Shown: positions 22,268 to 38,418, numbered from the stretch's first letter. The stretch is DNA of 64,000 nt from Minwuiaceae bacterium (GCA_028278525.1 JANQEE010000045.1:1-64000); one strand, 5' to 3'. Made by a program: numbers and translations. The notes: a model not told the origin generated them from the sequence alone.

Positions 22268-22513
22268 TCAGCTCAGCCGCGACGACAGGTACTCGACCGC
22301 GCCGTTCAGACTGGCGAGTTGCGGGGCCTCCGCTTCCGGAATTTCCAGCCCAGTCGCTTCGTGCAGGCCGGTAACGAAGTTTAGAAAATCCATCGAGTCG
22401 AATTCGAACTGATCGCGGAACAAGGCGTCCGGGTCGATCGGCTCGCCCTCGATGTCCGGCGCGACGTCGGCCAGCGTCCTGCGCACCAGCTCCGTAATCT
22501 CGTCCCTGGTCAT
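22268..22513 (-). CDS. Acyl carrier protein
   Basis: Small acidic carrier of 81 residues. The 4'-phosphopantetheine attachment Ser is S40 in FEFDSMDFLNFV, matching the DSL/DSM box of ACPs; helix II follows. Its start overlaps the E2 stop codon by 4 bases (ATGA), making it the fifth, translationally coupled gene of the acs-pdh operon. It is clearly not the housekeeping AcpP, which normally lies with fabD-fabG-fabF. A carrier for octanoate used in E2 lipoylation, or for a stress-induced acyl product fed by PDH acetyl-CoA, are both possible; neither is shown. Confidence 0.87.
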   Translation of the reverse strand: MTRDEITELVRRTLADVAPDIEGEPIDPDALFRDQFEFDSMDFLNFVTGLHEATGLEIPEAEAPQLASLNGAVEYLSSRLS

Positions 22514-23658
22514 AGCTTTTCCGGCTCCTGCAAGAGGTCGTTCAAGGTTTTCAGGAAACGGCTGCCGCGGCGGCCGTCGACGACCCGGTGATCGGCGGCG
22601 AGCGTCACTGTCTGCACACGCCTAAGGTCAATCGCACCATCAACCGGCCAGGGCCGCTCGACCACTGCGCCAAAGCCGATCATGGCGACCTGGGGCGGAT
22701 AAATCACCGGGTAGACCACCTCCGCGCCGTCGTCGCCCAGGCTGGTCACCGTGACCGTCGAGTCGCTCAGTTCGGAGCTTCTCAACGCACCTTTGCGGGC
22801 CCGCGCCACAACGTCGCGGAGCGTGCGCATCAGGTCGTCGAGGTCCCGCTTATCGATGTCGCGGATCGCCGGCGCGACCAGACCGCCGCCGCGCAGGGAA
22901 ACGGCATTACCGAGATGGATCGATTCCGCGGGACGAAATGCGCCGTCGATCCAGTGTCCATTCAGGTCGGGCGTCGCGCGCAGAGCCAGCGCGACCGCCT
23001 TCAACAGCGGCGCGATGGCAAGCAGGCGGCCCAGCACCGGTCTCATCGCGTTCTCCCGCTCGATCCAATCGAGCATGTTGCTCATATCGGCGGTGGCGGC
23101 GAGATAGAAATGCGGGATCTCCCGCTTTGAGCGTTCCATCGCGGCGGCAATGGCCCGCCGCATTTCCGTAGGATCGAACGCCGTGCGTCGAGGCGCGGCT
23201 TTCGGCGCAGCCGACGCCACCGATTCCACATCCGCAAGGGTGACCGCACCGCCGGGGCCCGTACCCGCCAAACCGGACGGATCGATACCGAGTGCCGCAG
23301 CCCGCCGACGCGCCACAGGGGAGACTTTGGTGCGACCGTTACGCGGCGGCATGGGCGCCGCCGGTTGCGGTTCCGGCCGTACCGAAACCGGAGCGGGCTC
23401 GGGCGCCGCAACCGGTTCCAAAGCCGGTCCATCGATCAATGCGAGAACGGCGCCGACCGGGACGCATTCGCCTTCCGTGACCTTCAACTCGGTGAGCTGA
23501 CCATCCTCGAAAACTTCGATCTCGATGGCGCCTTTCTGGGTCTCCACCACCGCGATGATGTCGCCGCGATGGACGGCGTCGCCCGGATGCTTCAGCCATT
23601 CGATCAGGATGCCGTCATCCATATCGGCACCGAGCGACGGCATCCGAAACTCAGCCAT
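22510..23658 (-). CDS. Dihydrolipoamide acyltransferase (E2) of a pyruvate dehydrogenase-type complex
   Basis: E2 subunit of 382 residues that carries the acyl group on lipoyl-lysine and transfers it to CoA. Domains in order: lipoyl domain (about 1-75, lipoylated Lys in [13 protein letters not shown]), a Pro/Ala linker, a peripheral-subunit-binding domain ([33 protein letters not shown]), and a catalytic domain ending in [14 protein letters not shown] with H357 and D361. The catalytic domain is short but has the key residues. The start is the ATG at 23658, 8 bases inside the end of the E1beta gene; the frame open upstream of it is the antisense shadow of E1beta. No E3 gene is present, so E3 must be shared. 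Confidence 0.92.
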
Positions 23659-24634
23659 CGCGGCCGATCGTCCGGTTGACCGCGGCAACAATGTCGTCGA
23701 TTTGCGGCGTCGCGGCGGTTTCCAGGTGCTTGGGATAGGGGATCGGCACCTCGACGGCGGTGACGCGCGCGACCGGCGCGTCCAATTCGTAAAATGCCTG
23801 TTCGGTAATCCGCGCGCTGATCTCGGCGGCGAAACCGACACTGCGCCAACATTCGTCAACCACCACGGCGCTGTGGGTCTTTGTGACCGAGCGCATAATC
23901 GTCGCGTCGTCGAGCGGCCTGAGCGAGCGGAGGTCGATGACCTCACATTCGACGCCGGCAGCGGACAGGCTCTCGGCCGCGGCAAGCGCCTTGCGCAGGC
24001 TGCCGCCGTAGGTGATGAGCGTGACGTCCCCGCCCGCACGCGCGACATCGGCGCCTTCGATCGGCACGGGGCCGGCGCCGTCCGGCAACGGACCGGTGTC
24101 GTTGTAGAGGGTGACATGCTCGAAGATGATCACCGGGTCGGGATCCTGCAGCGCCGTCCACAACATGCCGCGCGCGTCCGTCACCGTCGCCGGCGCCAGC
24201 ACCTTGATGCCCGGCACGTGGGCGTACCAGTTCTCCAGGCTGTGGGAATGCTGGGCGGCAAGCTGGCGGCCGGCGCCGGTCGACATGCGGATCACGATGG
24301 GGATCGAGAACTGGCCGCCGGACATATGTCGGATGGTGGCCGCGTTGTTGACGATCTGGTCAAGCGCCAGCAGGCTGAAGTTGACCGTCATGACTTCGAC
24401 GATGGGGCGCAGGCCGCCGAGCGCCGCGCCGATGCCGGCACCGACGAAACCGGCTTCCGAGAGCGGCGTGTCGCGGACCCGGTCCGGCCCGAACTCGTCC
24501 AGCAGGCCCTTGCTGCAGGCGTAGGCGCCGCCGTAAGCGCCGACATCCTCGCCCATCAGCAGAACGCGGTCGTCCCGCTGCAGCGCCTCCTGCAGCGCCG
24601 ACCGGACGGCGTCGCGGTAGGTGATATCGCTCAT
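23651..24634 (-). CDS. Pyruvate dehydrogenase E1 component, beta subunit
   Basis: Thiamin-diphosphate-dependent E1beta subunit (327 residues) of a 2-oxoacid dehydrogenase. Seen: [68 protein letters not shown], then [31 protein letters not shown], a typical PDH-type beta pattern. The ATG at 24634 overlaps the E1alpha stop by 4 bases. Unlike housekeeping alphaproteobacterial PdhB, it carries no N-terminal lipoyl domain. It forms the E1 heterotetramer with the upstream gene. Confidence 0.93.
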
Positions 24635-25631
24635 GGCGCGACCTCTCCGGCGGGCGTGTAGACGTCGCGTGTGAGCTCCTCGATCGCCTCCCATTTGCCC
24701 GCTTCGGCATAGGCGACCGCCGCTTCGATCTCCGCCGCCACCTCGTCCTCTATCTTCGCCATATCGTCCTCGCGGATCGCGGACGCGGCGATCAAACGAT
24801 CATGAAAGCCGGTGATCGGATCGCGTTCCTTCCATTCTTCGACCTCCGCTTTGTCGCGATAGAGTTCCGGATCGAACATCGAATGGGCGCGAAAACGGTA
24901 GGTTCGGTTCTCCAGGAAATACGGGCCGTTGCCCGCGCGGATCGACTTGAGCGCATGACGCGTCGCAACCTCGACGGCGATGACATCCATGCCGTCGACC
25001 AACTCGCCGGGAATACCGTAGGCGTCCGCATGGCGGCAGAAATCGGTTTGCGATTCCGACCGGTCCAGCGCCGTGCCCATGGCGTAGCCGTTGTTCTCGC
25101 AGACGAACAGGACCGGCAGGTTCCAGAGCGCGGCGAGGTTCAGCGATTCATGGAACTCGCCTTCCGCCGCCGCCCCTTCGCCGAAGAAGCAGCAAGTGAC
25201 GTTGTCACGTTTCTGCATCTTGTCGGCGAGCGCAAGGCCGACCGCGATCGGCAATCCGCCAGCGACGATGGCATTGCCGCCGTAGAACCGCGTTTCCTTG
25301 TCGAAGATGTGCATAGAGCCGCCGCGGCCGCGGCTGCAGCCTTCGACCTTGCCGAACATCTCTGCCATGACCTTGTCGGCCGGGATGCCGCGGGCCAGGG
25401 CGTGGCCGTGCTCCCGGTAGGTTGCGACGATGGCGTCTTGCGGCGACAGCGCGCGCATGACGCCGACGGCGTTCGCCTCCTCGCCGATGTAAAGATGCAG
25501 AAAGCCTCTGATCTTGCCGGCACTGTAGAGCTCGGCGCATTTCTCCTCGAAGCGGCGGATCAACACCATCTGCCGCAACAGGCCCAATACATGCTCACGG
25601 CTCAAATGCGGCTTGTCGGATGTGTCCAGAT

Positions 25632-25635
<4 letters not shown>
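24631..25635 (-). CDS. Pyruvate dehydrogenase E1 component, alpha subunit
   Basis: E1alpha subunit of 334 residues that decarboxylates the 2-oxoacid using thiamin diphosphate. [32 protein letters not shown] is the usual N-terminal pattern; the cofactor-binding motif runs from [33 protein letters not shown], and [23 protein letters not shown] contains the phosphorylation-loop His/Arg region. [30 protein letters not shown] is conserved in PDH-type rather than branched-chain enzymes. The start codon overlaps the acetyl-CoA synthetase stop by 4 bases. Confidence 0.94.
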
Positions 25636-27395
<1,760 letters not shown>

Positions 27396-27451: not shown

Positions 27452-27465
27452 TTGACCTGGGTCAA
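27452..27465. promoter_or_regulatory. FNR/CRP-family box upstream of acs-pdhABC-ACP
   Basis: TTGACCTGGGTCAA, a perfect TTGAC-N4-GTCAA palindrome and a match to the TTGA-N6-TCAA form bound by FNR, FixK and DNR proteins. Centred at 27458.5; a class II promoter would start near 27417, about 22 bases before the acs ATG. It overlaps the last codons of the ATPase gene. Identity of the binding protein is inferred. Confidence 0.7.
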
Positions 27466-30161
27466 GCTGTACGCCGGCCGATCAACCGCCCGATGACCGC
27501 CTTTTCCAGTTCAACCAAGACGAATACACCGACAGCAAAGGCCAGGATCTTGGCCCAGTCGGGCGGCGACAGCGGCGCAGTCCGGAACAGAAACTGCATC
27601 GCCGGCAGATAGGTGAATAGTATCTGGGCCAGGGCCACCAGGGCGATTGACAGCAGGACGGGTCGGCTGCCGAACAGGCCGCTCAGGGTCCAGGCGGGGC
27701 CGTAGATACGGCGGCAGTTCACCAGATAGACCGCTTCGCCGGCGACGATCGCATTGGTCGCAATGGTGCGCGCCGCTTCCAGACTGCCGCCGGCGGCGCG
27801 TTCAGCGACGAACAGCCCGAACGCACCGGCAACCAAAAAGACGGAGACCAATGCCGTCCGCCAAACCAGCAAAGGCGAGAGAATGGGCTCGCCCGGACGG
27901 CGGGGCGGCCGCCGCATCACGCCGGGCTCCACCGGCTCGAAACCGAGAGCCAGTGCCAGCGTGACGGTTGTTACCATGTTGATCCACAGAATTTGGACCG
28001 GTGTGATCGGCAGGGTGTGACCGAGCATGACCGCCGCGATAATCGTCAGCGCCTCGCCGAAGCTGGTCGGCAGGATGAACAGAATCGACTTCTTCAGATT
28101 GTCATAGATCGTTCGCCCCTCCTCCACCGCATGGGCGATGGAGGCGAAGTTGTCATCGACAATCACCATCTCGGCGGCTTCCTTGGCGGCCTCTGTGCCT
28201 TTGCGGCCCATGGCGACGCCGATGTCGGCGCGTTGCAGCGCCGGCGCGTCGTTCACGCCGTCGCCGGTCATGGCGATGACGTCGCCGCGTTTCTGCAGGG
28301 CTTCGATCAGCCGCAACTTATGCGCGGGCGTGGTGCGCGCGAAGACATCCGCCTCAACCGCAAGCGCCGCAAACGCGTCGTCGTCCGCGGCGTCAAGCTG
28401 ACGGCCGGTCACGACACCGCGGCCTTTGCCGATGCCGAGTGCCCGGCCCACGGCCCTGGCGGTTTCGGCGTGGTCGCCCGTGATCATCTTCACACGGATG
28501 CCTGCCTCCCGGCACTCGGCGACCGCTGCAATTGCCGATTGACGCGGCGGATCGATCAGGCCGAACAGACCGATCAGGATCAGCCCCTGTTCGACGTCGT
28601 CAAAGGCGAGCTCGCCCATCGCCCGGTCCGTCTGCCGGCCGGCGATGGCGATGACCCGTTGGCCACTGGCCGCGTGTTCCCGGGTCCTCTCGTGCCAGTG
28701 GGCATGATCGATCGGACAGGCCTCGCCGTCTTCGTACTGCCAGGCGCACATTTCCAATACGCGTTCGGGCGCACCCTTGACGAACATGTATCCGCTGCCC
28801 ATCGCTTCGCGGTGCGCGGTGGCCATGAACTTGTGTTCGGAATCGAACGGGATCAGCCCGACCCGCGGCAGGGTGCCGGACAGGTCGACAGAGTCGAACC
28901 CCGCTTTGATTGCGAACGACAACAGCGCGCCGTCGGTCGGACTACCGACCAAACGCATCTGACCGTTCGAGGGCGCCAACTGCGCATCGTTGCAAAGCGC
29001 CGCGCCCTGGGCGGCTCTAACGAGATCCGGATGATCGTCGAGCCGCACCGCGGCATCGTCCAACAGGATGCGGCCTTCACCGTTATAGCCGGTACCGGTG
29101 ACATGAAAGGTGTGCTTGGCCGTGACAAGCACCTGCACGGTCAGTTCGTTGCGCGTCAGTGTCCCTGTCTTGTCGGCACAGATAACGGAGACCGATCCCA
29201 GTGTCTCGACCGCCGGGAGACGGCGCACGATGGCGTGGCGCCGCGCCATTCGGGTCACACCGATGGCCAGGGCAATGGTCATGATCGCCGGCAGGCCTTC
29301 GGGAATGGCGGCAACCGAGAGGCCGACGGCGGCGAGAAACATCTCCGACACCGAATAGCCCTGCAACATGACGCCATAGAAAAACGTCGCCGCAGCCAGC
29401 AACAGAATGGCCACGCTCAACCATCGCCCGAAAACCGCGATTTGGCGCAGCAACGGTGTCGACATATCGGAAATGCCGGCCAACATCGCGCCGATGCGGC
29501 CGACCTCAGTCGCCGCGCCCGTTACCACGACGACGCCCTGGCCGGTGCCTTGCGCGACAAGGGTTCCGGAATAGGCCATGCACTGCCGGTCGCCGAGGTC
29601 GGTGTCGGCGGCGACCGGGTCCGGCTCCTTGCCCACCGCGAGCGACTCGCCGGTAAGGGCTGCTTCCTGGATCAGCAGGCTGTGAGCGTCGAACAGCCGC
29701 AGATCGGCGGGAACCTTGTCGCCCGACTTCAGCAGCACGATATCGCCGGGAACAAGATCCACCGCCGGCACGCGCGAACGAACCCCGTCGCGTACGACGA
29801 TGGCCTCCGGCGCCAGCATGTCGCTGATCGCTTCAAGGGCCCGTTCGGCCTGGCCTTCCTGAAGGAACCCGATTATCGCGTTGATGACGACGACACCCAG
29901 AATGACGCCGGCATCGATCCAATGGTCGAGGACCGCGGTAATCGCCGCGGCGACCAACAAGATGTAGATCAGGACGTTGTGGAACTGTTTGAGCAGCCGC
30001 GCAAAAGGACCCGGACGCGGCAATGTCGGCGTCGTGTTCGGCCCGAACCGGGCGAGACGCGCGTTGGCCTCAATGCCGGACAGACCGTCGGGCCCGCTGT
30101 CAAGCCGCTCGAAAACATCCCGGAACGGGATGGCGTGCCAGGGGGCGGAGATTTCGCTCAT
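27462..30161 (-). CDS. P2-type cation-transporting ATPase
   Basis: Membrane ATPase of about 899 residues, resembling the P2A (calcium-type) pumps. Seen: N-terminal cation ATPase domain (HAIPFRDVFERLDSGPDGLSG), actuator region with TGES, the TM4 motif IPEGLPAIMT, the phosphorylation site DKTGTLTRNELTV with D330, MITGDH, and MTGDGVNDAPALQ; six further C-terminal helices follow. The start used, MSEISAPW at 30161, is preferred because the FNR-type box at 30222-30235 would place the transcript start near 30187; an ATG at 30200 is the alternative. Ca2+ or Mn2+ export is the family expectation, not proven here. It ends 66 bases before the acs start, with a separate box between. Confidence 0.9.
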   Translation of the reverse strand: MSEISAPWHAIPFRDVFERLDSGPDGLSGIEANARLARFGPNTTPTLPRPGPFARLLKQFHNVLIYILLVAAAITAVLDHWIDAGVILGVVVINAIIGFLQEGQAERALEAISDMLAPEAIVVRDGVRSRVPAVDLVPGDIVLLKSGDKVPADLRLFDAHSLLIQEAALTGESLAVGKEPDPVAADTDLGDRQCMAYSGTLVAQGTGQGVVVVTGAATEVGRIGAMLAGISDMSTPLLRQIAVFGRWLSVAILLLAAATFFYGVMLQGYSVSEMFLAAVGLSVAAIPEGLPAIMTIALAIGVTRMARRHAIVRRLPAVETLGSVSVICADKTGTLTRNELTVQVLVTAKHTFHVTGTGYNGEGRILLDDAAVRLDDHPDLVRAAQGAALCNDAQLAPSNGQMRLVGSPTDGALLSFAIKAGFDSVDLSGTLPRVGLIPFDSEHKFMATAHREAMGSGYMFVKGAPERVLEMCAWQYEDGEACPIDHAHWHERTREHAASGQRVIAIAGRQTDRAMGELAFDDVEQGLILIGLFGLIDPPRQSAIAAVAECREAGIRVKMITGDHAETARAVGRALGIGKGRGVVTGRQLDAADDDAFAALAVEADVFARTTPAHKLRLIEALQKRGDVIAMTGDGVNDAPALQRADIGVAMGRKGTEAAKEAAEMVIVDDNFASIAHAVEEGRTIYDNLKKSILFILPTSFGEALTIIAAVMLGHTLPITPVQILWINMVTTVTLALALGFEPVEPGVMRRPPRRPGEPILSPLLVWRTALVSVFLVAGAFGLFVAERAAGGSLEAARTIATNAIVAGEAVYLVNCRRIYGPAWTLSGLFGSRPVLLSIALVALAQILFTYLPAMQFLFRTAPLSPPDWAKILAFAVGVFVLVELEKAVIGRLIGRRTA

Positions 30162-30221
30162 GTGACGACAGCTGAGGAACGTCGGATGATGCGACGACAT
30201 ACCCTCCGCGCCTACACCGCA

Positions 30222-30235
30222 TTGAGGCAAGTCAA
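30222..30235. promoter_or_regulatory. FNR/CRP-family box between the P-type ATPase and Sel1 genes
   Basis: TTGAGGCAAGTCAA fits TTGA-N6-TCAA. It lies between divergent genes, and a site at -41.5 would give transcript starts near 30187 (leftward, ATPase) and 30270 (rightward, Sel1 protein), both just ahead of the start codons. One site could therefore serve both genes. Confidence 0.65.
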
Positions 30236-30304
30236 AGTAGCGACGCCGCAACCAACGTATGAATTGGTCGAGATCGAAATCCGTTCTACCGGGAGCAATT
30301 CGAT

Positions 30305-31012
30305 ATGCGTCGGACTCTTCTCGCGATCGTCGCTGCGCTGACGCTGCTGTTCGTGGCTGGCCCGGCGGTCTCCGCGGACATCGACGACGGCATTCAGGCC
30401 TTTCGCGCAAGCCAGTTCGAGCGGGCCTGGCGGTTGCTCGAACCGTCGGCGGAAGCCGGCGACGACAAGGCGCAGTATATCGTCGGCGTGATGTACGATC
30501 ATGGCTACGCCCGCCCGCGCAATTACGCCAAGGCGGCTGAGTGGTTCGAACGGGCCGCGCGCCAGGGCAACGGCGACGCCGCCTTCAATCTGGGGCTCTT
30601 GTATTGGCGCGGCGCCGAAGCCGAGGCCGGCAGCCTCGCCCAGGACCCGGCTGAGGCTGCGGAGTGGCTGAGCCAGGCCGCGGACGCCGGTTTCGCGATG
30701 GCCCAGCAGATTCTGGCCGACATGTATCTTGCCGGGCGTGGCGTCGCGGTCGACGAAAGCAAGGCCTGCGACCTGGCCAAAGCGGCCGCCGATCGTGGCC
30801 TGGTCGGCGCGCAATTCACCGCCGGCCTGCTATATGGGCAAGGCCGGGGCTGCCGGAAGGACATAGTCGAGGCCTACAAGTGGTTCCGGCTCGGCGCGGA
30901 TGCGGGCTATCCCGGCGCGACGCAGAACGTTGATATCCTCCGCAGAGCGATGACCGACAGCGAGATCGCCGAGGCGGAAAGCGCGACGCGAAGCTGGCGC
31001 GCCACGCGCTGA
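30305..31012 (+). CDS. Secreted Sel1-repeat protein
   Basis: Exported protein of 235 residues with a signal peptide (LLAIVAALTLLFVAGPAVSA) and about four Sel1-like TPR repeats: AGDDKAQYIVGVMYDHGYARPRNYAKAAEWFERAA, then repeats with GDAAFNLGLLYWRG, AMAQQILADMYLAGRGVAVDESKA and VGAQFTAGLLYGQGRGCRKDIVEAYKWFRLGA. Sel1 proteins act as scaffolds for protein complexes, often in the envelope. The partner is unknown. It is divergent from the P-type ATPase gene and appears to share its FNR-type box, so it is probably part of the same regulon. Confidence 0.88.
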   Translation: MRRTLLAIVAALTLLFVAGPAVSADIDDGIQAFRASQFERAWRLLEPSAEAGDDKAQYIVGVMYDHGYARPRNYAKAAEWFERAARQGNGDAAFNLGLLYWRGAEAEAGSLAQDPAEAAEWLSQAADAGFAMAQQILADMYLAGRGVAVDESKACDLAKAAADRGLVGAQFTAGLLYGQGRGCRKDIVEAYKWFRLGADAGYPGATQNVDILRRAMTDSEIAEAESATRSWRATR

Positions 31013-31034
31013 CGATTTCCGCCTTCGATCGACG

Positions 31035-31484
31035 CTAAACGTCCAATACCGACCCCAGGTGATTGGCGAGGTCGCCAATCGGCAGGTGCGTCAGATCCTT
31101 ATTGAGTTCGGCCGAAACCACTTTACGGACAGATGGCGACAGCGCCTCGCGCAGATCGCCAAGCGACTTCGGCGGCGCCGCGATGATCAGGCGGTCGTAA
31201 GACCCTTTGGCGGCGTGCCGGTCCAGAAACGCGGCGATGTCGTGCGCAAACATGCGCTTGGCGTCCCGGCGCGGATCGGTCCTCGGTTCCATCGCGTGGC
31301 GCCCCTGCCCCATGCGGTCGAAGCTCCGGCCGGCCCGGTCGTTGTTAAACTCGCTGCCCGGCAGGTTTTCGCCCTCGATGTCTTTGTCGAATGCCCAGGT
31401 CACACCGCGCTGCGGCCCGTCGTTTTGGGCGATGCGCGCTCTTGCGCCGTCGGCGATCAGTATCCAGGTGGTGATCTTTTTCAT
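31035..31484 (-). CDS. Host attachment family protein
   Basis: Small protein of 149 residues of the family named 'protein required for attachment to host cells' (PF10116). Typical segments: ITTWILIADGARARIAQNDG at the N-terminus, an ERTDPRR-like central motif (AMEPRTDPRRDAKRMFAHDIAAFLD), YDRLIIAAPPKSLGDLREALS, and VSAELNKDLTHLPIGDLANHL. The start at 31484 has GAGGAG upstream. The biochemical role is unknown; structurally the family resembles translation-release-factor eRF1 middle domain-like (Baeyer) folds, so a link to ribosomes or RNA is plausible. It follows the HPF-CspA gene by 95 bp on the same strand and is likely co-regulated. Confidence 0.87.
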   Translation of the reverse strand: MKKITTWILIADGARARIAQNDGPQRGVTWAFDKDIEGENLPGSEFNNDRAGRSFDRMGQGRHAMEPRTDPRRDAKRMFAHDIAAFLDRHAAKGSYDRLIIAAPPKSLGDLREALSPSVRKVVSAELNKDLTHLPIGDLANHLGSVLDV

Positions 31485-31579
31485 GATGGCTCCTCGGGTC
31501 ATCTCAATTTGCGTGCATCGACGACCGGCAGGTGAACAGACCGCGACCTCGCCGCCCCGGCCCAACGCTTTGCAGCGGT

Positions 31580-32179
31580 CTAAGAACGACTTCCATCGTC
31601 CCGTACGGCCGTCCGCCGGGCGCGCACCGTTTCCACAACGTCCACGGTGCTTGCCTGCAGGCCTTTCTCCCCCAATTCCTCGACGAACCGAACCGCGATG
31701 CCAGGCGCGAGGTCGTCGAAGTCGGCGTTCACCACGCTGTTGCGATGGAAATAGACCTCGCTGCCATCGGCGGTTTCGATAAAGCCATAGCCCCCGTCGG
31801 GCAACAGCCGCGCGATCCTGCCGTGCGGCTCGGCTTCGTGGAATTTCACCTTGCCGCGGCTGACTCGCACATGGTCCTGAAGCTGCCGGCGCGCGGCATC
31901 GAACGCATCGCGGATGGCGACATACGGATCCTCGTGCGCGTGATGCTGCGACGGCGAACGTTTGACGACGAGGTCCTGGCGGCCCGGTACGGTCAGTTGG
32001 ATGCGCACCTGAAACAGCCGTCCCTGGTGGTGGTGCCTATGCGGCTCTTCGACGGTGACCCGGCAGGATGTGATGCGCCCGTGAAACCGGTCCAGCTTAG
32101 CGGCCTCGGACCGGATACGGGCTTCGACGGCGGGGGAAGACGGCAGTCCCTTAAACGAAATGACCAATGGTAATTGCAT
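31580..32179 (-). CDS. HPF/RaiA ribosome-hibernation domain fused to a cold-shock domain
   Basis: Two-domain protein of 199 residues. The N-terminal part (about 1-110) is HPF/RaiA-like: MQLPLVISFKGLPSSPAVEARIRSEAAKLDRF, SCRVTVEEPHRHHHQGRLFQVRIQLTVPG, and DPYVAIRDAFDAARRQLQD, which should bind the 30S decoding centre. The C-terminal part (about 120-185) is CspA-like, with GRIARLLPDGGYGFIETADGSEVYFHRNSV replacing the usual KGYGFI and FVHFS motifs. The ATG at 32179 was chosen because an upstream in-frame start adds 23 residues before the domain begins. The FNR-type box lies 88 bases upstream. It probably inactivates ribosomes and holds RNA during energy stress. Confidence 0.9.
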   Translation of the reverse strand: MQLPLVISFKGLPSSPAVEARIRSEAAKLDRFHGRITSCRVTVEEPHRHHHQGRLFQVRIQLTVPGRQDLVVKRSPSQHHAHEDPYVAIRDAFDAARRQLQDHVRVSRGKVKFHEAEPHGRIARLLPDGGYGFIETADGSEVYFHRNSVVNADFDDLAPGIAVRFVEELGEKGLQASTVDVVETVRARRTAVRDDGSRS

Positions 32180-32266
32180 CGCGGCAGGCTCTTCTGAAGA
32201 CGACCCGGCGATCACAATCGGATGCGCCTCGCAGCCCAAAGCTGGCACGGCCCGACAACGGTCACT

Positions 32267-32280
32267 TTGACCTGAATCAA
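32267..32280. promoter_or_regulatory. FNR/CRP-family box upstream of the HPF-CspA gene
   Basis: TTGACCTGAATCAA matches TTGAC-N4-ATCAA, the form closest to the FNR/FixK consensus in this window. Its centre is about 95 bases from the HPF-CspA ATG; activation at -41.5 would start the transcript near 32232 with a leader of about 53 bases. It shares the left half TTGACCTG with the box upstream of acs. Confidence 0.7.
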
Positions 32281-33557: not shown

Positions 33558-35153
33558 TCAGGCCGCGGCGGCGGGGGCCGCCTTCGCTTCGGTCTCGTAC
33601 TTGACCTCGCCGGAATCCCGGTCGACGCCGACGAGACTGACATCGTACCCCCATAGCCGGCGGACATGCTTCAGCACTTCCTTGCGGCTCTTTTCGTCGA
33701 GCGGAATGCCGTTGCGCATGCGGTGCTCCAGGCGCAAGTGGCGGTCGCCGCGCAGGTCCACGTCGACGATCTGGATGTCTGGGTCGATCGTGCTGATATC
33801 GTAGCTGCGGGCAACGGCCTCGCGCACCCGCCGATAGCCCTGCTCGTCATGGATAGGACCGACCGTGTAGTGGCTGTCCTTCTCATCGTCGGTCAAGGCG
33901 AATAGCTTGAACTGCCGGATCAGGTTGGGGCTCAGGAACTGCTGAATGAACGACTCGTCGCGGTAGTTCGCCCACGCATCCTTAAGCACACTGCGCCAAT
34001 CGCCGCAGCCGGCGATGTCCGGGAACCAGTGCTTATCCTCATCGGTCGGCTCGGTGCAGATGCGCTGAATATCCTGCATCATGGCCAGACCCAGCGCGTA
34101 AGGATTGATGCCATTGTAACGGGGATCGTCGAAGTCCGGCTGAAAGACGACGTTCGAATGGCTGTGCAGAATCTCCAGCATGGTGCCTTCGCTCAGCAGC
34201 CCTTTGTCGTACAACGCGGTGCAGATGTAATGGTGGACGAAGGTGGCGCAACCCTCGTTCATTACCTTGGTCTGCTTTTGCGGATAGAAGTACTGGGCGA
34301 CATTACGAACGATGCGCAACACTTCCCGCTGCCACGGCTCCAGCGCCGGGCTGTTCTTCTCGAAGAAGTAAAGCAGGTTTTCCTGCGGCAGTTTCAACCG
34401 CTTCTTGCGCGCGGCGAGATCCGCCTCGTCTTCGGTCGGGTCCGCGGCGCCCGGCCCCTTGGGAACCGTCCGCCACAGGTCGTTGAAGCTCTGCTGTTCG
34501 TAATCCTCACGCTCCTGCACACGGCGCTTGCGTTCACGTTCGCTCAGCTTCGGCGGCCGGCGGTAGCGGAATACGCCGTGGTCCATGATCGCGTGCGCGG
34601 CATCGAGAATTTCCTCGACCGCGTTCAGGCCCTCACGCTCTTCGCATTCGGCGATATAGCTTTTGGCGAACTGCAGATATTCCAGAATACCCTCGGCATC
34701 GGTCCACTGCCGGAACAGGTAATTGTTCTTGAAGAAGTGGTTGTGGCCGAACGCGGCGTGCGCCATGACCAACGCCTGCAGCGCCATGGTGTTCTCTTCC
34801 ATGTTGTAGCTGATGCAGGGATTGGAGTTGATCACGATCTCATAGGCAAGGCCGGCGTAGCCCTTGCGGTACATCCGCTCTTCGCGGGCGAAATGCTTGC
34901 CGAACGACCAGTGCGAATACATCAACGGCATGCCGATCGACGAATAGGCGTCGAGCATCTGTTCCGATGAAATAATCTCGACCTGGTTCGGATAGACGTC
35001 GAGCCCGAGGTCGTTCAATGCGACCTCTTCGATTGCATCATAGGTGCGCTGCAAGGTCTCGAACGTCCATTCGGACCCCTCGAACAGGGGTTCTACGTCG
35101 CTCTTCTTTGCCATGGTCGCCGACCGCTTCTGCGGCTCCTCGATGATGGCCAT
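33558..35153 (-). CDS. ycgB: SpoVR/YcgB family protein
   Basis: Cytosolic protein of about 531 residues, very close to E. coli YcgB through its length. Landmarks: EIISSEQMLDAYSSIGMPLMYSHWSFGK, AYEIVINSNPCISYNMEENTMALQALVMAHAAFGHNHFFKNNYLFRQWTDAEGILEYL, QYFYPQKQTKVMNEGCATFVHHYI, HSHSNVVFQPDFDDPRYNGINPYALGLAMMQDIQRIC, and ESFIQQFLSPNLIRQFKLF. Its ATG shares one base with the stop of the YeaH-like gene; an alternative ATG at 35114 exists. In Bacillus SpoVR affects cortex formation and in E. coli it joins YeaG and YeaH in stationary or nitrogen-stress physiology; the mechanism is unknown. Position in the operon behind prkA and yeaH matches the conserved trio. Confidence 0.95.
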   Translation of the reverse strand: MAIIEEPQKRSATMAKKSDVEPLFEGSEWTFETLQRTYDAIEEVALNDLGLDVYPNQVEIISSEQMLDAYSSIGMPLMYSHWSFGKHFAREERMYRKGYAGLAYEIVINSNPCISYNMEENTMALQALVMAHAAFGHNHFFKNNYLFRQWTDAEGILEYLQFAKSYIAECEEREGLNAVEEILDAAHAIMDHGVFRYRRPPKLSERERKRRVQEREDYEQQSFNDLWRTVPKGPGAADPTEDEADLAARKKRLKLPQENLLYFFEKNSPALEPWQREVLRIVRNVAQYFYPQKQTKVMNEGCATFVHHYICTALYDKGLLSEGTMLEILHSHSNVVFQPDFDDPRYNGINPYALGLAMMQDIQRICTEPTDEDKHWFPDIAGCGDWRSVLKDAWANYRDESFIQQFLSPNLIRQFKLFALTDDEKDSHYTVGPIHDEQGYRRVREAVARSYDISTIDPDIQIVDVDLRGDRHLRLEHRMRNGIPLDEKSRKEVLKHVRRLWGYDVSLVGVDRDSGEVKYETEAKAAPAAAA

Positions 35154-36466
35154 CAGCTCGCTTGCTGATCGGCGGAAAACAACTCGCGGAAGACCGGGTA
35201 AATGTCGCCCGGCTGAGCGATACGCTTCATCTCGAAATTCGCCCACCGGTCACTGACATTGCGATAGCCCTGCCAAAGAGCCGTCCCGTTGGTCGAGTTC
35301 TGGAAAATCTGCATCTCGCGCTCGTCGAGGATTTCGACATATGCGTAATACTGACAAAGCGGCATCAGCTCGCTATCCAGAAGGCCGATGCATTTTTCGG
35401 TGTCGCCCGAGAAGTTCTCGCCATCGGACGCCTGGGCCGCGTAGATGTTCCACTCGTCGACCGGATAGCGTGCCTTCAAAACCTTCTGCATTTCGATCAG
35501 CGCCGTGCTGACCACCGTGCCGCCGGTCTCCCGGCTATAGAAGAAGGTTTGCTCGTCGACTTCCTGGGCCAGGTGCGTATGTCGGATAAACACGACGTCG
35601 ATCCGCTCATATCGGCGCTTCAGGAACAGATGCAGAAGGATAAAGAACCGTTTGGCCAGGTCCTTCTCCCGCTCGCCCATCGAACCGGACACGTCCATCA
35701 GGCAGAACATGACCGCCTTCGTGTTGGGTTCGGGGTGCTGCACGAAATTGTTGTAGCGAATGTCGAATGGATCGATGTAGGGCACGCTCCGCCGCTTGTG
35801 CTGCAACGCCTCGTACTCTTCGTGCAGCGCGGCAAGACGACTGTGTTCCTCGGCACAACGATTCGACTTGCGCTCGAGATCGATAATCTCCTGCGCAATC
35901 CTGTTCAACTCATCGGAGGACGGACGTTTCAGTGCCAGCCGCCGGCCGAAAGCATTCCGCATCGACCGCAGGACGTTGATGTTCGTCGGCGTGCCCGAGT
36001 TGGTGTAACCGGCCCGGTGCGGTTTTACGGAGCAGATCTCCTTGAGATCCGTTTTGACCAGATCCGGCAGTTCCAGATCCTCAAAAAACAACTCAAGGAA
36101 TTCTTCCCGCGACAGCGCGAACTCGAACTGGTCCTCGCCCTCGCCATCTTCCGCGCCTTGCTTGCCGCCCTCGCCCTGTCCGCCGGACGGCGGCTTCTTC
36201 ACCTTGTCGCCGGAGCTGAACTCCTTGTTGCCGGGGAAAACCCGCTCCCGATAACCGCCGGTGGGAGAATGGCGAAAACGCGGTTCGCCAATTCCCTTCG
36301 ACGGGATCGTGATGGTCTCGCCGGTACCGATGTCGGAAATGGCGCGCTCGGTTACCGAGCGATTGACCACTTCCTTGATCTGGGCACGCGCGCGCCGCAT
36401 GAACCTTTGCCGGTTGCCAAGGCTCTTATCCTTCGGATTCTGGCGGCGGTCGATAAAAAAGGGCAT
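35153..36466 (-). CDS. yeaH: YeaH/DUF444 family protein with vWA-type domain
   Basis: Protein of 437 residues. The N-terminus MPFFIDRRQNPKDKSLGNRQRFMRRARAQIKEVV and GGYRERVFPGNKEFSSGDKVKKPP are diagnostic for DUF444. A disordered Gly/Glu/Asp stretch lies near 95-115. The C-terminal half is a von Willebrand A-like domain with a MIDAS-type DVSGSMGEREKDLAKRF and SRETGGTVVSTALIEM. It lies between prkA (17 bp upstream) and ycgB (coupled downstream). Its partner is presumably the PrkA AAA+ kinase, by analogy to MoxR-type ATPase/vWA pairs. Confidence 0.95.
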   Translation of the reverse strand: MPFFIDRRQNPKDKSLGNRQRFMRRARAQIKEVVNRSVTERAISDIGTGETITIPSKGIGEPRFRHSPTGGYRERVFPGNKEFSSGDKVKKPPSGGQGEGGKQGAEDGEGEDQFEFALSREEFLELFFEDLELPDLVKTDLKEICSVKPHRAGYTNSGTPTNINVLRSMRNAFGRRLALKRPSSDELNRIAQEIIDLERKSNRCAEEHSRLAALHEEYEALQHKRRSVPYIDPFDIRYNNFVQHPEPNTKAVMFCLMDVSGSMGEREKDLAKRFFILLHLFLKRRYERIDVVFIRHTHLAQEVDEQTFFYSRETGGTVVSTALIEMQKVLKARYPVDEWNIYAAQASDGENFSGDTEKCIGLLDSELMPLCQYYAYVEILDEREMQIFQNSTNGTALWQGYRNVSDRWANFEMKRIAQPGDIYPVFRELFSADQQAS

Positions 36467-36483
36467 GAATTATACGCCAATCG

Positions 36484-38418
36484 TTATCCAGCCTTGTTGA
36501 CCCGCATGTACCACTCGACCAGCCTGCGGACTTGCCGTTCGGTATAACCCCGCCCAGTCAGTCGGGCGACGAACTCGGTATGCTTCTTGTCGGACTCGCT
36601 GTCCTTCTTGCTGCCGAAGCTGATCACCGGCAGCAGGTCCTCGACCTGTCCGAACATGCGCTTCTCGATGACGTCGCGCAGCTTTTCGTAGCTGGTCCAG
36701 GACGGATTCTTACCGTCGTTCTGGGCCCGCGCCCGCAGAGCGAACTTCACGACTTCGTTGCGGAAGTCTTTCGGGTTGGCGATGCCGGCCGGCTTCTCGA
36801 TCTTGGAAAGCTCGGCGTCCAGGATCTCGCGGTCGAAGATCTGGCCGGTATCCGGATCCTTGTAGTCCTGTTCTTCGATCCACGCATCGGCGTAGGCGAT
36901 GTAGCGGTCGAACAGGTTCTGGCCGTACTCGGTGTAGGATTCCAAATATGCCTTTTGGATCTCGTTGCCGATGAATTCGGCGTAACGCGGCGCCAACTCG
37001 GACTTGATGAATTCCAGATAGCGGTTTTCCGTCTCGTCCGGGAACTGCTCGCGCTTGATCGCCTGCTCCAGGATGTACATCAAGTGCACGGGATCGGCCG
37101 CGATCTCCTTGGTGTCGTAGTTGAAGGTTTCCGACAGCACCTTGAACGCGAATCGCGTGCTGACACCGTTCATGCCTTCGTCGACGCCGGCGGTATCGCG
37201 ATACTCCTGCATCGACTTGGCCTTTGGATCGGTGTCCTTCAGGTTCTCGCCGTCGTAGATGCGCATCTTCGAATAGAGCGACGAGTTCTCATGGTCGTGC
37301 AAACGCGTCAGCACGCAGAACCGGCTGAGAATATCCAGGGTCTCAGGCGCGCAGGACGCATCGCCAAGCTCGCTCGACTTTAGCAGTTTCTCGTAGATGT
37401 TCGCTTCCTCGGACACGCGCAGGCAATACGGCACCTTGACGACGCAGATGCGGTCCAGGAACGCTTCGTTGTTCTTGTTGTTCCGGAACTGCTGCCATTC
37501 GGCTTCGTTCGAGTGCGCCAGAACGATACCCTGATACGGGAAAGCGCCGAAGCCTTCCGTGCCCTGATAGTTCCCTTCCTGGGTCGCCGTCAGCAGCGGG
37601 TGCAGCACTTTGATCGGCGCCTTGAACATCTCGACGAACTCCAGCAGACCCTGGGTCGTGCGGTTGAGCCCGCCGAAATAGCTGTAGGCATCCGGATCGT
37701 GCTGGCTGTAGTGCTCCAGCTTGCGGATGTCGATCTTGCCGACCAGCGCGGAAATATCCTGGTTGTTCTCGTCGCCCGGCTCGGTCTTCGCGATGCCCAC
37801 CTGGCGAAGACGCGAGGGTGACATCTTGACGACGGTGAACTTGGAGATATCCCCGCCGAACTCGTCCAGCCGCTTGATCACCCAAGGCGACATCAGGCCG
37901 TTCAGCCGGCGCCTGGCGATGCCGTACTTATCCTCAAGCAGGTCGCCCGCGGAATGCGGGTCGAACAGGCCCAAGGGCGATTCGAACAGCGGGCTAATCT
38001 CTTCGCCGGCCTTCAGCACATAGATGGGCTGCTCTTCCATCAGAAGCTTGAGCCGCTCGGCAAGTGTCGACTTGCCGCCGCCGACCGGACCGAGCAGGTA
38101 CAGGATCTGCTTGCGCTCTTCCAGGCCCTGCGCGGCATAACGGAAGTACCCCACGATGCGCTCGATGGTGTCTTCCATGCCGTAGAAATCATGGAACGCC
38201 GGGTAGCGTTTGATGGTCCGATTCAGGAAGATGCGGCCCAGACGCGAATCGGTGCTGGTGTCGATCAACTTCGGTTCGCCGATCGCCTTGATCATCCGCT
38301 CGCCAGCAGTCGCGAACATCATCGGGTCGTCGCGACAGCCTAAGAGATAGTCTTGCAGACTGATCTCTTCCTGTTCGTTGCGGTTGTAGACATCTGACAG
38401 CTGATCAAAGAAGTTCAT
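36484..38418 (-). CDS. prkA: PrkA-family serine protein kinase / AAA+ ATPase
   Basis: Protein of about 644 residues, YeaG in E. coli. The N-terminal AAA_PrkA domain has Walker A GPVGGGKSTLAERL and IYVLKAGEEISPLFESPLGLFDP; the C-terminal PrkA kinase-like domain follows (NEAFLDRICVVKVPYCLRVSEEANIYEKLL, ELAPRYAEFIGNEIQKAYLESYTEYGQNLFDRYIAYADAW). The ATG at 38418 has AGAGGAT upstream; an ATG seven codons earlier is less well placed. It is first gene of the prkA-yeaH-ycgB operon, which is RpoS- or NtrC-dependent in enteric bacteria. The promoter here was not identified. Confidence 0.96.
   Translation of the reverse strand: MNFFDQLSDVYNRNEQEEISLQDYLLGCRDDPMMFATAGERMIKAIGEPKLIDTSTDSRLGRIFLNRTIKRYPAFHDFYGMEDTIERIVGYFRYAAQGLEERKQILYLLGPVGGGKSTLAERLKLLMEEQPIYVLKAGEEISPLFESPLGLFDPHSAGDLLEDKYGIARRRLNGLMSPWVIKRLDEFGGDISKFTVVKMSPSRLRQVGIAKTEPGDENNQDISALVGKIDIRKLEHYSQHDPDAYSYFGGLNRTTQGLLEFVEMFKAPIKVLHPLLTATQEGNYQGTEGFGAFPYQGIVLAHSNEAEWQQFRNNKNNEAFLDRICVVKVPYCLRVSEEANIYEKLLKSSELGDASCAPETLDILSRFCVLTRLHDHENSSLYSKMRIYDGENLKDTDPKAKSMQEYRDTAGVDEGMNGVSTRFAFKVLSETFNYDTKEIAADPVHLMYILEQAIKREQFPDETENRYLEFIKSELAPRYAEFIGNEIQKAYLESYTEYGQNLFDRYIAYADAWIEEQDYKDPDTGQIFDREILDAELSKIEKPAGIANPKDFRNEVVKFALRARAQNDGKNPSWTSYEKLRDVIEKRMFGQVEDLLPVISFGSKKDSESDKKHTEFVARLTGRGYTERQVRRLVEWYMRVNKAG

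Follow-up and report, generated by a model that had tools for sequence, protein, structure and literature searches.

FNR/FixK-type boxes place acs-pdhABC-ACP and HPFcold genes in a putative low-oxygen regulon of a Minwuiaceae bacterium

Do three copies of the palindrome TTGA-N6-TCAA within 4.8 kb of a Minwuiaceae bacterium genome mark genes under common control, and is their grouping itself unusual? Here, we analyze the 64,000-nucleotide stretch of DNA in which they lie (the window; GCA_028278525.1, JANQEE010000045.1:1-64000), for which a sequence-only reading had proposed a compact FNR/CRP-type energy-stress regulon. The exact 14-mers were confirmed at the positions given in Table 1, and the 64-kb window contains no others; dinucleotide-shuffled windows have a mean of 0.45 matches, and none of 100 shuffles reached three. 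Gene calls and domain searches bear out the gene names of that reading as well (acs-pdhABC-ACP, P-type ATPase with Sel1, HPF-CspA with a host-attachment protein). Gene starts were taken from a simple caller of our own, and the distances given below may shift with alternative starts.

Table 1. Boxes and genes of the block (positions counted from the first letter of the window)
Feature	Coordinates	Strand	Description
Acyl carrier protein (ACP)	22268-22513	-	PF00550; terminal gene of the conserved acs-pdhABC-ACP operon
pdhC, E2	22510-23658	-	One lipoyl domain; PF00364, PF02817, PF00198
pdhB, E1 beta	23651-24634	-	PF02779, PF02780
pdhA, 2-oxoacid dehydrogenase E1 alpha	24631-25635	-	PF00676
acs, AMP-forming acetate--CoA ligase	25632-27395	-	NF003313, 893 bits (above cut-off); heads the operon
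FNR/FixK box 1	27452-27465	-	Read toward acs: TTGACCCAGGTCAA
P-type ATPase, type II	27462-30161	-	Top-scoring models are PMR1/SERCA Ca2+ types, with scores under equivalog cut-offs
FNR/FixK box 2	30222-30235	.	Divergent ATPase/Sel1 intergenic region
Sel1-repeat secreted protein	30305-31012	+	Divergent from ATPase
"Host attachment" protein, baeRF family 12	31035-31484	-	Downstream of HPFcold, same strand
HPF-CspA (HPFcold)	31580-32179	-	S30AE/sigma-54-modulation domain and cold-shock domain
FNR/FixK box 3	32267-32280	-	Read toward HPF: TTGATTCAGGTCAA

Box 1 overlaps the TGA stop (27462-27464) of the ATPase gene, and its center precedes the start codon of acs by 63.5 nt; because it touches that stop and lies ahead of acs, transcription running on from the ATPase gene could be a second route to acs. 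Box 2 has its center 67.5 nt from the start codon of the ATPase gene (ATG at 30161) and 76.5 nt from that of Sel1 (ATG at 30305). It is the weakest of the three, with a TTGAG half-site that departs from the TTGAY...RTCAA consensus. The center of box 3 precedes the start codon of HPF-CspA (ATG at 32179) by 94.5 nt. Two of the three boxes do have TTGACCTG in common, as had been pointed out, but this is not special to the island: TTGACCTG occurs in at least 7 of the genome's 46 strong sites, so the sharing is a property of the whole regulon.

Scanning the 5.95-Mb genome, as suggested with the sequence-only reading, revealed strong enrichment and upstream placement of such sites, with 93 matches to the loose pattern TTGA-N6-TCAA (50 of them individually listed) vs 22 to the reversed pattern, and 46 matches to the strong pattern TTGAY-N4-RTCAA vs 4 to its reversed control. 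Of the strong sites beyond the window, 43 were examined in their surroundings, i.e. all but one on contig C70; 35 of these 43 are intergenic, or 37 of 45 (about 82%) with the two strong sites of the window, against a non-coding baseline of about 8% (about 92% of the window is coding; P about 2e-32). Behind the strong sites are ccoNOQPGHIS, a gene for a HemN-type enzyme, nosR with its divergent regulator and fnr itself, along with genes for Usp, CBS-BON, Hsp20, hemerythrins, FtsH and a phosphotransferase-AAA protein, and with ccoNOQP, hemN, nosR, fnr, Usp, CBS and Hsp20 among them the targets match those expected of an FNR/FixK regulon. These data support the assignment of the three window boxes to a predicted genome-wide FNR/FixK-type regulon. 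The genes of two diiron proteins (rubrerythrin/AurF-like) also have strong boxes ahead of them, at distances of 42.5 and 136.5 nt (L050 4303-5400 and L059 1816-2871).

The grouping of the boxes in one stretch, which had been put forward as the notable feature, does not hold up as such: given 93 randomly placed genome sites, three boxes in 4.8 kb are expected with P about 0.22 from spacing alone, and similar islands are already known. We accordingly do not regard the clustering as statistically striking. Elsewhere (L266 5621-6595, on contig C37 of G000), three boxes fall in 1 kb between Usp and CBS-BON genes, and the chance of three boxes that close is P about 0.01.

At class II promoters the activator box is centered near -41.5, which puts the -10 element about 22 nt past the box. 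Of 49 aligned box-to-gene stretches, 17 have the -10-like pattern NANNNT at exactly 22 nt past the box, vs about 2 of 49 at other offsets (P about 7e-12 for the excess); class II FNR promoters have this spacing, and a class II architecture is thus supported. The proposal of class II activation with short leaders fits acs and HPF-CspA, which have the candidate -10 elements CAGACT (22 nt after box 1) and CAGCTT (22 nt after box 3) and predicted leaders of about 22 and 53 nt, respectively. It fits Sel1 in part, with TATGAA 22 nt after box 2, and appears not to fit on the ATPase side, where the sequence at the same distance is TGTCGT and no good -10 is seen.

Conservation of the boxes was examined at orthologues from sampled genomes of the class, with loci oriented by tblastn and 250 nt upstream of each gene searched, allowing at most 1 mismatch. 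Other genes in the same loci served as controls, since mononucleotide shuffles overstate significance. A box is present at 11 of 17 acs orthologues vs 1 of 44 control genes (Fisher test, 3e-7), at 13 of 29 ATPase orthologues vs 5 of 64 (8e-5) and at 16 of 33 HPF orthologues vs 15 of 78 (0.002), and 79 further HPFcold loci from public genomes gave 29 of 79 vs 130 of 868 controls (6e-6); boxes are common at genes around HPF generally, so that part of the HPF enrichment reflects its neighborhood. Exact boxes are rarer (acs 5/17, ATPase 2/29, HPF 6/33), and many acs, ATPase and HPF orthologues are missing a recognizable box. The genome L255 has HPF and acs as divergent neighbors flanking a single box; in other relatives the distance between the two genes ranges from a few kb to 24 kb, and HPF, baeRF, Hsp20, Usp and FtsH genes with boxes are found near acs-pdhABC-ACP. 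This proximity of boxed HPF and acs genes in relatives makes the grouping recurrent, although the spacing in the window is unexceptional by itself. Around HPFcold, FtsH and acs, a 12-kb stretch of a Rhodospirillaceae genome (L225 6504-18447) holds eight exact boxes.

The acs-pdhABC-ACP genes are kept as an operon in most of the relatives' loci that were read, and the ACP gene is terminal in all full copies read. Several other E1 paralogues are encoded elsewhere in the genome, so the pyruvate dehydrogenase (PDH) of the window is one of several isoenzymes. No acetate kinase was found in the genome, which does have Pta-type domains and a membrane pyrophosphatase. Acs has been shown to run toward ATP in Syntrophus (PMC4992975), and we speculate that the window Acs may do so too, which would fit the absent acetate kinase and the membrane pyrophosphatase. 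We found no report in the open-licence literature of acs, PDH or ACP control by a FixK or FNR box.

The ATPase passed no ion-specific equivalog cut-off in NCBIfam. A second P-type ATPase, 55% identical to it, is encoded near a strong box that is also flanked by a Usp gene and a gene for a 65-aa HTH_17 protein (L267 10622-14683, on contig C53 of G000), and both paralogues may belong to the putative regulon. Sel1 was rejected as a conserved partner because it is not kept beside the ATPase in orthologue loci, which also makes its predicted membership in the regulon doubtful.

From its full-length match (E 4.8e-41) to the HPFcold chain of PDB 9T0Z/9TZE, HPF-CspA is an orthologue of this ribosome-bound protein; in the available portion of the Coxiella burnetii study, HPFcold binds the 30S subunit with its cold-shock domain over the anti-Shine-Dalgarno sequence (PMC13392368). 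The adjacent baeRF protein scores 129 bits against the family 12 model PF18856 (cut-off 27.7) and is the only PF10116 match in the genome, and the two genes probably form one operon. HPF-baeRF adjacency was rejected as a general rule, as it was seen at few loci besides the window (L080, L083, L108 and L223). No report of an HPF with a cold-shock domain under an FNR-type box was found in the open-licence literature. Just past the block, SpoVR-like, YeaH-like and PrkA-like genes (putative names, from gene calls) stand in a row on the minus strand (33558-38418).

Which regulator could act here? Six CRP/FNR-type proteins in the genome score over the Pfam cut-off, and a search among them for candidates, likewise suggested earlier, yielded three with FNR/FixK/DNR-type recognition helices. 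L016 has N-terminal CAACAVRDRAIC (C-x2-C-x7-C), an internal Cys and the helix ETVSR, i.e. the features of a four-cysteine FNR, and scores 173 bits against NCBIfam FnrL, whose equivalog cut-off is 300. L017 has the helix ETVSR without the cysteine cluster, i.e. it appears FixK-like, and its gene lies beside those for an OmpR-type regulator and a PAS histidine kinase. The predicted NnrR-like regulator, L021, is encoded on the same contig as the three boxes; it has the helix ESLSR, and its gene is divergent from nosR-like (nosRZ-type) genes with a TTGA-N6-TCAA box between. The NCBIfam scores of all three are under the equivalog cut-offs. We take ETVSR and ESLSR (E-x2-S-R) to be TTGA-reading helices and the Cys cluster of L016 to be an Fe-S cluster signature, and judging from known family specificity all three proteins could read TTGA-N6-TCAA.

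The boxes are very probably operators of a CRP/FNR-family activator governing a low-oxygen regulon, which is the best explanation of the site enrichment, the regulators present, the class II spacing and the boxes at orthologues, and in these respects the energy-stress proposal stands. That they are instead chance palindromes in a GC-rich genome, with no regulatory meaning, is barely credible: their unexceptional spacing within 4.8 kb would suit chance, but the intergenic bias, the fixed -10 spacing, the canonical targets and the recurrence at orthologues contradict it. It is improbable, too, that the boxes serve mainly a nitrosative response, driven on NO by the NnrR-like (NnrR/DNR-type) regulator. 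The position of that regulator's gene opposite nosRZ-type genes across a box speaks for such a role, and FNR, FixK-like and NnrR-like proteins are not separable by site sequence; the regulon's cco, hemN, fnr, Usp, CBS and Hsp20 genes nevertheless fit FNR/FixK, and an FNR and a FixK-like protein with the ETVSR helix are both encoded.

A narrower reading, in which only the acs and HPFcold boxes function while box 2 is a chance match and neither ATPase nor Sel1 is a direct target, is unlikely overall but carries more weight than either of these. It draws on the TTGAG half-site of box 2, outside the strong consensus, on the ATPase side having no -10 at +22, and on Sel1 not being conserved beside the ATPase. 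The ATPase orthologues argue against it, with a box within one mismatch far more often than control genes, as does the paralogous ATPase on contig C53, which also adjoins a strong box and a Usp gene.

In the favored explanation of a low-oxygen regulon, we infer binding, oxygen response, acting regulator and physiological roles from sequence features. The activator would be the four-Cys FNR, or a FixK-like or NnrR-like protein reading the same sequence. As oxygen falls, the activated dimer would bind at a site about 41.5 bp ahead of the start, recruiting RNA polymerase to a weak -10 in class II fashion and switching on acs-pdhABC-ACP as a dedicated pyruvate/acetyl-CoA/acetate module, the type-II P-type ATPase, and HPFcold with the baeRF protein, which would hold ribosomes idle and shield them. 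Together these genes would form a compact island for energy saving and survival. Observation of HPFcold on a ribosome is recent, and the conserved FNR-type box ahead of its gene offers a concrete candidate trigger in oxygen limitation, with baeRF as a candidate partner; the conserved acs-pdhABC-ACP operon, which has a box of the same type, may be an energy module for low oxygen.

The predicted low-oxygen island is real but of a largely familiar kind, as the same genes carry the same box in many distant relatives; what appears new is the putative oxygen link for HPFcold-baeRF and acs-PDH-ACP, which we did not find reported as targets. The accessible text on alphaproteobacterial FNR/FixK/DNR regulons (Dufour et al., 2010; PMC2908626) describes the box, regulator family and core targets also seen in the present genome (cytochrome oxidase, HemN-type enzyme, Usp and FNR); unlike here, acs-pdhABC-ACP and HPF were not found as targets in that text, and its P-type ATPase is of the heavy-metal type, whereas that of the window is type II. 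Under microoxia, Bradyrhizobium diazoefficiens induces Usp, CBS and host-attachment proteins (bll5315, bll4645), with induced genes clustered around bll4644-blr4659 and some of them putative FixK2 targets, according to the available portion of PMC6515984, in which neither acs-pdhABC-ACP nor HPFcold was found. The lxa locus of Burkholderia cenocepacia, described in the accessible part of its source as 50 genes for survival of oxygen limitation that include Usp, Hsp20 and metabolism genes (PMC6127331), resembles the window block as a cluster of low-oxygen survival genes. The lxa locus is betaproteobacterial, however, and in that text neither control by this type of box nor an HPFcold gene is established for it. 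No Usp gene is named within the 22-33 kb block or close to it (the Usp genes found with boxes are on other contigs), so the block is not a large contiguous cluster of the lxa type with many Usp genes. The C. burnetii HPFcold, CBU_0020, is the same two-domain fusion as HPF-CspA; oxygen control is not described in the available portion of its source (PMC13392368), whereas the HPFcold gene of the window is preceded by an FNR-type box and followed by baeRF. Finally, an association of baeRF and HPF genes with a proposed role in translational shutdown has been described (Burroughs and Aravind, 2019; PMC6514570), with baeRF next to an HPF gene as in the window; that account makes no mention of cold-shock domains, whereas the pair found here joins baeRF to HPFcold under a putative low-oxygen box.
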